The notes under the pieces were generated by a model. It ran no database searches, had not been told where the DNA came from, and saw only the letters and a program-made list of their open reading frames with translations. From Candidatus Brocadia pituitae (GTDB taxonomy: Bacteria; Planctomycetota; Brocadiia; Brocadiales; Brocadiaceae), in contig AP021856.1 of assembly GCA_017347445.1 (NCBI GenBank), positions 3,232,613 to 3,296,612 on the forward strand: a stretch of DNA of 64,000 bases, read 5' to 3'. Shown piece after piece: positions 56,666 to 61,716 of the stretch (position 1 is its first letter; every line of letters starts with the position of its first letter). The position numbers were made by a program, and so were the translations under genes.

Positions 56666-59194
56666 CTATCCGTAATAATAGTCTCCTGTCTTTGCCTGAT
56701 TTAAGATGGCGCCAAGGATACGGGCGTTATTCTCCTTCATACAGGTTGTGACTTTATTAATTGCTTCGACAGGAACCTGCCCTGACTTAACCACAAAGAT
56801 TACCCCGTCAGCAAAGTTCAACAATGGCATCGCAGTATTCATGGCCTCCATCATCGGCGGGGCGTCCACGAGCACCACATCGCATTGCTGTTTCAGGAGA
56901 TACAGGAACTTTGAAAGAAGACCAAAGTATATGGGGCTGTCAGGGTTTACATGGCCTGCACCAACAGGCAAGAGTGATATGTTCGAACCATTTATCTGCT
57001 GAACGTGTGAAAACAACTCTCGCTTCAACAGACGACTTCCCGCTGTATTCCCCAGACGCCTGACAATCGGTGCGTAATCCTCAGCAAAGTAGATTTTCTT
57101 ATCTTCGTAAATTTCTATATCGCCTGCCTCAAAGGTAAAGCTACCCTGTTTCCAACTAAAAAGCTTCTGGAGGTGTTCCTCCATCTGGAGTTTTAATGGC
57201 CCTTTGAGTTGCTCCTGGTTCACGTATCCGGCATTGATCAGGATATATCCAAGCGGTAAGCCCGTGCGCTGGTTCCTTTCCAGCGCGTCTTTTAACTGAT
57301 CCTCAGTGATGAAACCCCCACGGAGGAGCATGGCTCCCAAACGGTTGGCAAACGGGGTATCGTTACTTTGGATTTGAAATAAACAACCATTTTGAAAGAG
57401 GACGGTTATGCCCAGGGTATCATTAGTGACAACGAGCTGCCCGCTGAGCTTTTTCAGGGCAATGATGGAAAAGAGGTCATCCACACTGTAGTCTTTTAAA
57501 TTACCCTGCATAATATTTTTTGACAGTACCCCTTCCATGGCATTGAGCAATCCATGTGCCCCGCCGTTCTCTGTCCCAAACACCTGATGTAATGACGGAT
57601 GGTGAAGGTCGGCATCTACCATGATCACGCGTAGGCCCCCTTTCGCCAGGTTTATTGCCAACTTTGCCAGGACGGTAGTCTTCCCTTCGCCCTTCATTGT
57701 ACTTTCCACCACATACACGTGTCCATGCATACCTGATTGCATCAGGGGTAATCTGGCAACGAAGTTACCTGAAATATTGTATAATGCGTATCCTTCTTTC
57801 GCCAGCTTTTGTCCGCCGCGGTGCGATTCGTTTCCTGGCAGGGCGAGTGTTTTGTTTCTCTTTAATGACCTGTCATAGGGTATTACCCCCAGTACCGGCA
57901 GCCTCAAATGTTTGGCAGCATCTTCCGGTGTTCGCACGGTCTTGTCCATATATTCAAGGAAAAAGGCTAGTCCCACACCAAAGGTCAAACCCACGATAAT
58001 AGAGAGGAGTGTATTTAACAGAATACGTGGTTTGAATGTGGAAATGGGCACTTCCGCCTCATCCACGATGCGGATATTGCTCTTTTTCATGTTACCGGTA
58101 AGGTTGACTTCTTTTGCCTGTGTGAGCAGGATATCATAAATCACCTTGTCGCTTTCGGCCTCCAGGCGCACCATATCATAGTTTACGGCCTTTTCGGTTT
58201 GAGGTTTTACGGTATCGTGCGGGAGATGCCGGTTTTGCTGATTGGCCTTTTCAATCGCTGCTATCCGGTTCAGTTCCGTCCTGATGGCCTTCCGTATCGA
58301 TTGTATCTCATGGATGATCCCCTCTTCCAGCTTTCCGATGCCGTTATCGATCTCGATGATTTTGTGATGTTTGGGGCCATACCTGGTGACCAGGATCGAT
58401 CGTTCCGCCTTCAGGTTGCCTAATTGGTTGTGCAGATTCCTGATGATGACGTTCTGCTCAACTTCCGGTATGGAAAAGATGCTTTCGTCATCGATGGTAA
58501 ATGACCGTAGCTGCTTGTACTTATATTCATACGCCGCCTTCTGCGAAGTCCCCACCTTCATCTTTTGCGCAGAAAGTTGATCCTTGAACCAGTCCAGTGC
58601 CTGCTGGGAGGCCAGTTGCTGGATATGATTGTTCCGCTCAATGAATGCCCGGGCGTGGGTATTCGCAATGAGTGCGGCCTTTTCCGGCGATGGATGCTGA
58701 AAACTGATATCAACCAGGTGGGTCTCACGCAAAGGAGAGATCTCCAGATTTTTCAGGTACCACTTGATGATCCGGGGGTCGCTCCTGATGTCTGATTGAT
58801 CAGATGCATTGCCGGATAATGCGTCCTGCTCTTTTGTGCTTCTGTCATCCTCTAATTTACAGTCCTTCCAGAGTTCCAATTCTTCGATAACGCCCTTTGC
58901 AAGACTCCTGCTCACGAGGAGTTTGTATTGTGTCTGGTAGTAGCTCTTATTTTGAACGTCAGAATTCATATTCACCTTTGAGACATCCGCCATCTCATTC
59001 AGGAGTGAATCAGTATTTTCTATCATAAGCTGCGTGGTTGCCTTATAGATGGGCGTAGAACGAAGCGACCCCACGACAACGGTGATAACCACGGTCAGGA
59101 AGAAGATGATAACGACCCATTTCCGTTTTCTGATGACATTGAGATAGTCGACTAAATGTACGTCCTGCTGTAATGGCATTTGTTGGTCAGGCAT
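56666..59194 (-). CDS. Wzz/BY-kinase chain-length regulator with inserted DUF4388/MshEN-like segment
   Basis: An 842-aa polysaccharide co-polymerase and tyrosine autokinase that sets EPS chain length. A Wzz domain (membrane helices at about 27-43 and 391-413, coiled coil between) is followed by a kinase with Walker A around STMKGEGKTT (498-507), Walker A' VIMVDADLHHP (523-533), Walker B VVLVDAPPM (773-781) and a C-terminal YYY (839-841). Between A' and B an extra 130 residues (about 565-695) look like DUF4388 (LKKLSGQLVVTNDTLGITVL ... FSWKQGSFTFEAGD). Inside it two 24-residue motifs start at R618 and P647 with a 5-residue spacer, as in MshEN c-di-GMP domains. It is intact. Confidence 0.93.
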   Translation of the reverse strand: MPDQQMPLQQDVHLVDYLNVIRKRKWVVIIFFLTVVITVVVGSLRSTPIYKATTQLMIENTDSLLNEMADVSKVNMNSDVQNKSYYQTQYKLLVSRSLAKGVIEELELWKDCKLEDDRSTKEQDALSGNASDQSDIRSDPRIIKWYLKNLEISPLRETHLVDISFQHPSPEKAALIANTHARAFIERNNHIQQLASQQALDWFKDQLSAQKMKVGTSQKAAYEYKYKQLRSFTIDDESIFSIPEVEQNVIIRNLHNQLGNLKAERSILVTRYGPKHHKIIEIDNGIGKLEEGIIHEIQSIRKAIRTELNRIAAIEKANQQNRHLPHDTVKPQTEKAVNYDMVRLEAESDKVIYDILLTQAKEVNLTGNMKKSNIRIVDEAEVPISTFKPRILLNTLLSIIVGLTFGVGLAFFLEYMDKTVRTPEDAAKHLRLPVLGVIPYDRSLKRNKTLALPGNESHRGGQKLAKEGYALYNISGNFVARLPLMQSGMHGHVYVVESTMKGEGKTTVLAKLAINLAKGGLRVIMVDADLHHPSLHQVFGTENGGAHGLLNAMEGVLSKNIMQGNLKDYSVDDLFSIIALKKLSGQLVVTNDTLGITVLFQNGCLFQIQSNDTPFANRLGAMLLRGGFITEDQLKDALERNQRTGLPLGYILINAGYVNQEQLKGPLKLQMEEHLQKLFSWKQGSFTFEAGDIEIYEDKKIYFAEDYAPIVRRLGNTAGSRLLKRELFSHVQQINGSNISLLPVGAGHVNPDSPIYFGLLSKFLYLLKQQCDVVLVDAPPMMEAMNTAMPLLNFADGVIFVVKSGQVPVEAINKVTTCMKENNARILGAILNQAKTGDYYYG

Positions 59195-59529: not shown

Positions 59530-61716
59530 CCCACATTTTTTACTGGACAAATCATGGTGGAGATAATGAATGGGGGGTTAGTTCTGTAACAAAAACTTTC
59601 CACATAGCGGTCATATCATCAAGTCTTTGTATCCCAAGCCAAAGCGTTTTTGTTCCCGGTTCACCATCCCCTTTTCGGCCTAAAAAACCACCTAAACTCG
59701 CCACCATTCGAACCGCTTCCCTTAAACTCGGTGGATTTGAAGGTGGAGTCGGATTTTGGGTTTTGTACGCAAGGAGTGCCTTCCATTCTGCTTCTTCAAA
59801 AAATACGGTACAGGGAACATCCGGTACTTCCCTGCCAAGTTTCGTTAAATAATAGATCCGCCATGCCACTACCATATCGATTGCCAGACACGCTTCTATG
59901 CGATCGGCATTTCCCAGTTGCCTTTGTTCTATTTGACAACCACTCTTTAACGTCTTATGGTAAACCTCTATACCCCATCGCCTGGCATACCATTCCAGCT
60001 TCTCCACGGATTCTTCAAACGTATCCACCGGGATTGTCGTTAACAACATCCATTTGAGTGGGGTTGTTGATTCCGGTGCATTTTCTTCCACCGCCAGTAT
60101 TGCATAAACCTTCAGAGGGCCTTTTGCTCGTTTCCCTGGGGGAGCTTTCAATTCCACCGCTCCATAACGGATTACCAATTCCGCTTCCCGTGACGGCTGA
60201 TTTCCCTTTCGGGGAATCCTGATCCGCTGAATCCCGCTCACGGGACGACTGTCTATATACCCCCACAATCGCTCCTGTTCATGGAACAGACTACGATTAT
60301 GCTCCGCACGAACTAACAACTTCGGATTCCCTGTGCCTGCCATGGCTAATTCAAATAATTCATAAATATCCGCCTCTCTGTCTCCGACACTGACGATAAC
60401 GGTTTTCGGACACTGCTTTTGGATTTCCGCCACCGAGCTGAAACTCACCAGCCATTTGTTGCTCTCTTTCTCTTCTATGGGTAGTTTATGGCGCTGATGT
60501 TTCTTGCCATAGTTCTCTTTGTCCCTCGCCCAGCACTGCACATTCATCAGCCCCAGCGGCGTCCCCTCCCGGTTAAATGCCATCGTATCATGCACCATGA
60601 GCCCGATTACCTCTTCTCCCCTTGAACTAATCGGTCCAAGATTCTCGGTCGCCGGATGCAAACTATAATTCAAACTCGTTGTGTCCTGTATCGCCAACAC
60701 CACCTCTTCTTCCCTGATTCGATTCACGGTTGACTGATAATGTGCACTCAGGATGGTTTCCATGGTACTTGCCTTGTTATCCAAAAATCGATATGCCGCT
60801 TTCGTTCTTGCACGGCTTTGGCATGCCTGCGGAATATTCGCCCGGGGGTTCGCATAAAAATCACGGGCCATCTCTCTCAGCCTGATGGTCAACCGCAAGT
60901 CCCCCAGATTCGCATTCCCGAACTCTTCTTCCGCCCAGTCACAATGCCCCCTCACTTCTACGGCTTCCTTCGCCTGCCCTTCACACAAACGCTCCCTTGC
61001 ATCGGAATATAACGGATAAAGATAGATGTCTTTGACCGGCAGCCTATACTCATTCCCAGCATCCTGTCTCCCTCGTCCCTGCGTCGTTCCTACATGCTGA
61101 AAATTTGCCGCCTGATAACAGGTACCCAAAAACCTTCCTTTCTCTACAAAGGTCTCCACCAGTACCGGTGCATCACCATTTTGTTCCGCCCAGTCCCTCT
61201 TCATCTGCCTCAGACTCTTTGACAATACCCAGGATGCCAGGTTCTTCACTTTCACCCAGGGCGCTATCAAAAAACGACTGTTACAGACAATGCGGTTTAA
61301 ATATCTTAACCGGTTTTCTTCATTCCACCCTATCCATTCCTCTCTCGCCCTCAAACGCCACGCCGGGGAACTGAATGATACCGCTCCTATCAAACCATAT
61401 TTCTCGCTCCTCACTAAATACCTCATCTGTTTCCCGTATAATGTCCCCTGTCCTAAATAATGGTATCGCTCTATCATTGCCTTCCAATGGGGATACTTCT
61501 CGTCTCTCGAATTATATACCCTGACAAGCTCGATTTCACCAAGTTCCTCTAAACAACACTCTATCCCGGACTCTTCTGATTCACACGCCTGTTCCTGATT
61601 CCCGGTTCGATCCGGCAACCTGTTTGTTCGGCTCTCTTCTGGAAAACTATCTGCATTTTGTTTCATGCACCACAGCTTAACCAATCAGGAGGCTTTTGTC
61701 CAGTAAAAAATGTGGG
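59530..61716 (-). mobile_element. IS4-family (Tn5-like) insertion sequence with DUF4338 cargo domain (2187 bp)
   Basis: Perfect 22-bp terminal inverted repeats at 59530-59551 and 61695-61716 (outer end CCCACATTTTTTACTGG). One long gene fills the element. I see no convincing target duplication: the flanks are TTATCTTTA and ACATGTTAA. The flanks both carry C-run/GTAAAC repeat words, so the insertion may be in, or have recombined with, such a repeat. Confidence 0.9.
59552..61666 (-). CDS. Fusion: DUF4338 (DruA-like) domain + Tn5-type IS4 transposase
   Basis: About 704 aa from the ATG at 61666 (a TTG at 61684 adds six; numbers below use that frame). Residues 50-240 are DUF4338: HWKAMIERYHYLGQGTLYGK, WIGWNEENRLRYLNRIVCNS, RFLIAPWVKVKNLASWVLSK, GTCYQAANFQHVGTTQGRGR. 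Residues 249-305 are the Tn5 transposase DNA-binding domain (WAEEEFGNANLGDLRLTIRL, ARTKAAYRFLDN). The DDE core follows, with D334 (IQDTTSLNY), D435 (VSVGDREADIYEL) and E573 in the Y-R-E-K block RRWGIEVYHKTLK. The D435-E573 spacing (138) equals that of Tn5. The C-terminus matches its dimerisation region. It is intact, likely active. Confidence 0.9.
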   Translation of the reverse strand: MKQNADSFPEESRTNRLPDRTGNQEQACESEESGIECCLEELGEIELVRVYNSRDEKYPHWKAMIERYHYLGQGTLYGKQMRYLVRSEKYGLIGAVSFSSPAWRLRAREEWIGWNEENRLRYLNRIVCNSRFLIAPWVKVKNLASWVLSKSLRQMKRDWAEQNGDAPVLVETFVEKGRFLGTCYQAANFQHVGTTQGRGRQDAGNEYRLPVKDIYLYPLYSDARERLCEGQAKEAVEVRGHCDWAEEEFGNANLGDLRLTIRLREMARDFYANPRANIPQACQSRARTKAAYRFLDNKASTMETILSAHYQSTVNRIREEEVVLAIQDTTSLNYSLHPATENLGPISSRGEEVIGLMVHDTMAFNREGTPLGLMNVQCWARDKENYGKKHQRHKLPIEEKESNKWLVSFSSVAEIQKQCPKTVIVSVGDREADIYELFELAMAGTGNPKLLVRAEHNRSLFHEQERLWGYIDSRPVSGIQRIRIPRKGNQPSREAELVIRYGAVELKAPPGKRAKGPLKVYAILAVEENAPESTTPLKWMLLTTIPVDTFEESVEKLEWYARRWGIEVYHKTLKSGCQIEQRQLGNADRIEACLAIDMVVAWRIYYLTKLGREVPDVPCTVFFEEAEWKALLAYKTQNPTPPSNPPSLREAVRMVASLGGFLGRKGDGEPGTKTLWLGIQRLDDMTAMWKVFVTELTPHSLSPP

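Follow-up and report, generated by a model that had tools for sequence, protein, structure and literature searches.

What is a module resembling cyclic di-GMP (c-di-GMP) receptors doing in the middle of the catalytic domain of a bacterial tyrosine kinase (BY-kinase)? The question is raised by a 64,000-nucleotide stretch of Candidatus Brocadia pituitae (contig AP021856.1, positions 3232613-3296612 of a 4.08-Mb single-contig genome), henceforth the window, which codes for a Wzz-fused BY-kinase of 842 amino acids. c-di-GMP acts directly on synthase-type polysaccharide systems, namely on BcsA via PilZ and on NfrB via MshEN. We found that the window kinase carries, between its Walker A' and Walker B motifs, a PATAN (DUF4388) domain that is itself split by an MshEN module. 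The balance tips slightly towards what we consider the best explanation, namely that this is a BY-kinase/polysaccharide co-polymerase whose inserted PATAN-MshEN module would bind c-di-GMP and tune exopolysaccharide production.

A PATAN-MshEN insert in the catalytic domain

The extent of the insert was delineated by comparison with plain BY-kinases from the same genomes and family. In most of these the kinase profile splits at about positions 95-100 and 276-284, and between those breaks they carry mostly 7-18 residues. These breaks put the insert, at about residues 554-733, between Walker A' and Walker B; the extra segment thus spans about 180 residues rather than the roughly 130 estimated in an earlier sequence-only reading of this DNA.

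Two profiles, both above their cut-offs, identify the segment. The first is the Pfam profile for DUF4388 (gathering cut-off 25 bits; Table 1), bearing out the likeness suggested by the sequence-only reading. The second is NF053729, the NCBIfam model for "cyclic di-GMP-binding domain-containing protein, MshE-related" (cut-off 38 bits), which matches residues 618-665 with 54.3 bits in the full-length protein and 57.2 bits in the insert alone. The N-terminal domains of PilF, MshE and PilB match the same residues in a phmmer search against the PDB, and the module aligns to the solved c-di-GMP domains of MshE (5htl) and PilF. The MshEN-like segment proposed earlier is therefore present, and its 24-5-24 layout recurs at exactly the positions first given, with the spacer 642 QRTGL 646 between the two motifs. 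Agreement with the published MshEN consensus extends to 19 of 22 scored positions (the misfits being N641, P647 and Y657) and to 10 of the 12 ligand positions (R1, L2, G3, L17, L21 and Q24 of both motifs), N641 and P647 being the exceptions. None of 200,000 shuffles of the protein reproduced the two-block pattern, and chance similarity was accordingly rejected.

The two domains are nested: the 98 positions of the DUF4388 profile are spread over 132 residues because the MshEN module sits mid-domain. From the N-terminal side, the insert consists of PATAN strands, the two MshEN motifs, a LKLQMEEHLQKLFSW segment and the last strand. With both profiles matching in this manner, assignments as DUF4388 only or as MshEN only were rejected. 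In the AlphaFold2 model, predicted strands flank four helices located as MshEN expects, the helices having a predicted local distance difference test (pLDDT) score of 35-50 in context. Modelled alone the insert fares worse (mean pLDDT 49.8), and a fold search with this low-confidence model listed GyrB/MutL-type matches (Z < 5) and no MshEN structure, a result that carries no evidential weight in either direction.

The kinase core of the model is usable. By its motifs and predicted fold, the protein is a BY-kinase/polysaccharide co-polymerase with putative tyrosine autophosphorylation: it displays the BY-kinase signature of Walker A, A' and B motifs and a C-terminal tyrosine cluster, its P-loop domain starts at about residue 490 in Pfam, and the P-loop residues G48, E49, G50 and K51 are invariant in the alignment of its relatives (A1). 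The model of residues 455-842 superposes on the VpsO kinase domain (Z 24.1, root-mean-square deviation 3.2 over 194 residues), followed by Wzc, CapAB and Etk. Because the insert stays outside the superposition of the core on these solved BY-kinases, it is probably a domain looped out of the kinase core. Hence, a position inside the nucleotide site holds along the chain and is only a suggestion in space. With Wzc, VpsO and CapAB the protein shares the Wzz and GNVR regions, the P-loop kinase fold with its three Walker motifs, the tyrosine tail and the setting in an exopolysaccharide locus; it differs from them in the insert and in lacking the ExxRxxR motif.

Table 1. Features of the insert-bearing kinase in the window (positions within the 64,000 nucleotides)
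Feature	Residues	Position	Strand	Evidence or remark
Wzz-fused BY-kinase open reading frame	842 aa + stop	56666..59194	-	Wzz, GNVR, ParA/CbiA/AAA_31 P-loop matches
Wzz chain-length determinant N-terminal domain	12-106	58877..59161	-	Pfam PF02706, E 5e-10
GNVR segment	345-412	57959..58162	-	Pfam PF13807, E 1e-11
P-loop / Walker A, MKGEGKTT	500-507 (GEGKTT at 502)	57674..57697	-	
Walker A' region, VIMVDADLHHP	523-533 (IMVDAD at 524)	57596..57628	-	
Inserted segment	~554-733 (~180 residues)	56996..57535	-	no counterpart in plain BY-kinases
PATAN / DUF4388 domain, split by MshEN module	563-694	57113..57508	-	Pfam PF14332, 71.9 bits, E 6e-20
MshEN motif I, RLGAMLLRGGFITEDQLKDALERN	618-641	57272..57343	-	NF053729 and conservation
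MshEN motif II, PLGYILINAGYVNQEQLKGPLKLQ	647-670	57185..57256	-	NF053729 and conservation
Walker B, VVLVDAPP	773-780	56855..56878	-	
C-terminal tyrosine tail, GDYYYG	837-842	56669..56686	-	relatives also with Tyr-containing tails

The nested build is not confined to this kinase. DUF4388 is present in 173 of 294 Planctomycetota genomes; the best-scoring matches are mostly about 160 residues long, with others of about 100, and NF053729 matches at least 24 of 27 sampled planctomycetal DUF4388 stretches at E <= 1e-9. Makarova et al. (2006) are said to have called the PATAN insertion the alpha-clip and to have predicted it as a four-helix bundle. The title of that paper names a PATAN domain "with an alpha-helical insertion" (cited in PMC4316618), and MshEN_N is a four-helix bundle (PMC5013675). 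We infer that the PATAN helical insertion is one and the same as the MshEN_N module, and found no paper stating so. The window insert shares with the PATAN domains of Makarova et al. the strands, the MshEN-type helices, the LxxQxEExLxxLFxW segment and the last strand. Whereas those are usually fused to response regulators or other signalling proteins, here the domain lies within a tyrosine-kinase catalytic domain. Likewise, it shares with the MshEN/GSPII receptor domains of MshE, PilF and NfrB the two 24-residue RLGxx(LVI)(LVI)xxG motifs with their five-residue spacer, a passing NF053729 score, Gly3 of both motifs and Gln24 of motif II. It departs from them in the Asn at motif I position 24, the Pro at motif II position 1 and a Gly-Pro pair in helix 4, and also in its placement within a PATAN domain inside a BY-kinase, those domains standing ahead of a secretion ATPase or at the C-terminus of a glycosyltransferase.

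The sequence-only reading knew of no description of direct c-di-GMP gating for BY-kinases. In line with this, a search of the open-access literature for MshEN with tyrosine (auto)kinases gave no c-di-GMP receptor domain inside a BY-kinase, most subscription papers being outside its scope. The MshEN fusions listed in 2016 comprise REC, HD-GYP, CheA, CheX, cyclase and Ser/Thr kinase, with tyrosine kinases unmentioned (PMC5013675), and a review of capsule chain-length control mentions c-di-GMP only for synthase-dependent systems (PMC12220298). However, the profile for EpsG-type BY-kinases (TIGR03029) opens with an MshEN-like stretch, so the pairing of the two is not wholly unprecedented. The EpsG module is N-terminal, more degenerate and without PATAN, and its kinase is separate from the EpsF chain-length protein; the PATAN-MshEN insertion in the catalytic domain of a BY-kinase is a new architecture variant. 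One EpsG-type kinase, on the Mitsuaria sp. 7 plasmid NZ_CP011515.1 (L103, 2953-3828), has an N-terminal MshEN-like module with an NF053729 score of 37.8 bits, against the cut-off of 38, and may be a further instance of MshEN and a BY-kinase having been combined, independently of the one described here.

Phyletic spread and conservation of the insert

Eighteen relatives carry the same insert in the same place; close relatives bearing it come from Brocadia, Jettenia, Scalindua, Anammoxibacter, one Desulfobacterales and one Nitrospirae genome. Within the window's own family, 11 of 33 genomes code for an insert-bearing kinase, and the scores are bimodal (>550 or <60 bits). In the kinase-core tree these proteins group together with support of 100/100 (clade 1; n = 19 including the window protein), and all 19 match NF053729 at E <= 1e-9. 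A second group (clade 2) comprises 13 Desulfobacterota kinases (L073, L077-L088) with an insert at the same site and degenerate ligand motifs; the Wzz part is missing from many of them. One shared origin of the inserts of both clades is not rejected (p-AU 0.356). Two scans of viral contigs yielded no further homologues. Some loci represent the same genome reached by two routes, and near-identical sequences were dropped for the bits-per-site comparisons below. A Scalindua genome (G314) holds four insert-bearing kinases (L004, L006, L098 and L099), one with an in-frame stop.

Within the clade-1 cytoplasmic domain, conservation peaks in the MshEN block, whose variability of 0.56 bits per site compares with 1.07 between the P-loop and Walker A' and 1.36 in the stretch around Walker B. 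The relatives L001-L008 were first found with patterns taken partly from inside the insert. In a check for this selection bias, the clade-1 kinases from the whole-profile search showed the same excess (mean pairwise identity of 75% in the MshEN block versus 57% and 50% in the catalytic regions). Clade 2 shows the opposite order, with 1.71 bits for the MshEN block versus 1.26 and 1.34 for the catalytic stretches. There, 8 of 13 kinases have Ala, Pro or Ser in place of Gly3 of motif I, and Gly3 and Gln24 are lost in many members, whereas the compared clade-1 sequences do not vary at Gly3 of either motif, Arg1 of motif I or Gln24 of motif II. The combination of an intact clade 1 and a degenerate clade 2 offers a natural comparison for the function of the PATAN-MshEN insert.

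Probable ligand binding, proposed control of assembly and alternative explanations

Taken together, the motifs and profile matches indicate that the MshEN module of the insert probably binds c-di-GMP. One guanine half-site would be formed by R618-L619-G620 with L634, L638 and N641, and the other by P647-L648-G649 with L663, L667 and Q670. The two deviating residues, N641 and P647, on account of which the sequence-only reading had doubted binding, are clade-1 family traits, with position 24 of motif I being His, Cys or Ser in single relatives. The doubts they raise are weaker than feared: PilF GSPII-C naturally has Pro first in motif II and binds c-di-GMP at about 500 nM, while PilF GSPII-B, with Lys and Leu at the two deviating positions, binds at 6 nM (PMC11731258). 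In MshE, changes of Arg9 or Gln32 cost at most about fivefold in affinity, whereas a change of Gly11 abolished binding (PMC5013675); both motif Gly residues are retained in the window kinase.

Several points weigh against ligand binding. Part of the earlier doubt stands, in that PilF GSPII-A regained measurable binding only with H33Q, S39R and R62Q (PMC12002112); the residue equivalent to N641, likewise not Gln, contributed to its loss of binding. Helix 4 is broken at the Gly-Pro pair 665-666, which lies between two of the ligand leucines and may kink this helix in clade 1. The twelve ligand positions are more conserved in clade 1 than random module positions (permutation p 0.04), but this is weak evidence for binding because clade 2, with its degenerate motifs, gives the same p. 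Further, the entire clade-1 module is conserved beyond its ligand positions, a pattern also expected of a protein-protein contact. Clade 2 keeps the insert even where Gly3 is lost, showing that it can persist without canonical binding. Finally, the insert model is of low confidence both in context and alone.

These points bear on the strongest alternative, a possible though less probable one, in which the insert would be a PATAN protein-protein docking or oligomerisation domain whose MshEN-like helices form a structural bundle that no longer binds c-di-GMP. PATAN response regulators do work via protein contacts, as with PixE and PilB1 (PMC9090330), although the function of PATAN itself has been termed unknown (PMC5812497). 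Docking would account for the retention of the insert in clade 2 despite the frequent loss of Gly3 and Gln24, for N641 and the helix-breaking G665-P666 as family traits, for the conservation of the entire module together with the following QMEEHLQKLFSW segment, and for the absence of ExxRxxR in clade 1. It sits poorly with the constancy in clade 1 of Arg1 of motif I, Gly3 of both motifs and Gln24 of motif II, with scores far beyond the curated cut-off for the c-di-GMP motif, and with the RLG/PLG turns, which a structural bundle alone would not require.

We consider it marginally probable that the module affects the kinase. Binding would alter either the packing of the kinase domains in the ring or the phosphorylation cycle, and exopolysaccharide export and chain length would be tuned as a result. 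A candidate route is suggested by ExxRxxR, which is absent before Walker A from the window protein and every other clade-1 member. Roughly one in two of the plain BY-kinases examined has it in strict form, and it is therefore not obligatory for membership in this family; it also occurs in 5 of the 13 clade-2 members (the single match of L085 lies elsewhere than before Walker A). In Vibrio cholerae VpsO the motif supports oligomerisation, and when it was mutated both polysaccharide production and phosphorylation in vivo were lost (PMC7485978), while Wzc alternates between an octamer and a phosphorylated monomer (PMC8285477). The loss of the motif in clade 1, together with this behaviour of VpsO and Wzc, leads to the proposal that the insert controls ring assembly, having taken it over from the lost ExxRxxR and made it signal-dependent. 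Control exerted through assembly is only a tentative part of the c-di-GMP explanation. Equally speculative is its wider form, whereby in anammox (anaerobic ammonium-oxidising) bacteria and a few others c-di-GMP on the PATAN-MshEN module would drive co-polymerase ring assembly in place of ExxRxxR, amounting to post-translational control of a Wzx/Wzy-type system.

A pseudokinase-like chain-length regulator, whose catalytic fold survives as a scaffold for binding nucleotide while the insert, whether or not c-di-GMP is involved, is the sole regulated part, would fit the loss of ExxRxxR throughout clade 1 given the VpsO mutant phenotype, the greater variability of the catalytic regions than of the MshEN module and the short tyrosine tails, but is improbable in view of the Walker A, A' and B motifs and C-terminal tyrosines retained across the clade and of the in vitro autophosphorylation that persists in the VpsO ExxRxxR mutant (PMC7485978).

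Genomic context and c-di-GMP setting

The kinase neighbourhood is one of exopolysaccharide synthesis and export. In the window it includes genes for a UDP-sugar dehydrogenase, a CapD-like Polysacc_synt_2 protein, a UDP-GlcNAc 2-epimerase, a DegT aminotransferase, glycosyltransferases, a flippase and a protein with a weak Wzy_C match; in relatives, Poly_export/SLBB, porin or Polysacc_synt genes lie near the kinase. If the module binds its ligand, a single protein would link the main biofilm signal to the cycle of phosphorylation and assembly through which a Wzx/Wzy co-polymerase passes. This might help to explain the control of the granule matrix in anammox bacteria, which serve in wastewater treatment. 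The matrix in anammox granules correlates with c-di-GMP (PMC11224092), and the genome has 16 GGDEF matches along with four other MshEN proteins, namely three secretion/pilus ATPases and one CheA.

The CheA (L009, 1012-2826; genome ~2249035-2250849) combines Hpt, dimerisation, HATPase and CheW domains, with MshEN between the Hpt and dimerisation domains; at 63.8 bits this module scores highest in the genome on NF053729, and fusions of MshEN to CheA figure in the list of Wang et al. (2016). The interval separating the kinase from the CapD-like gene holds, at 59552-61684 on the reverse strand of the window, a gene for a 710-residue protein in which a DruA (Druantia) domain is joined to transposase domains of the Tn5 type; sister locus L001 has its kinase gene directly beside the CapD-like gene, with no such gene in between.
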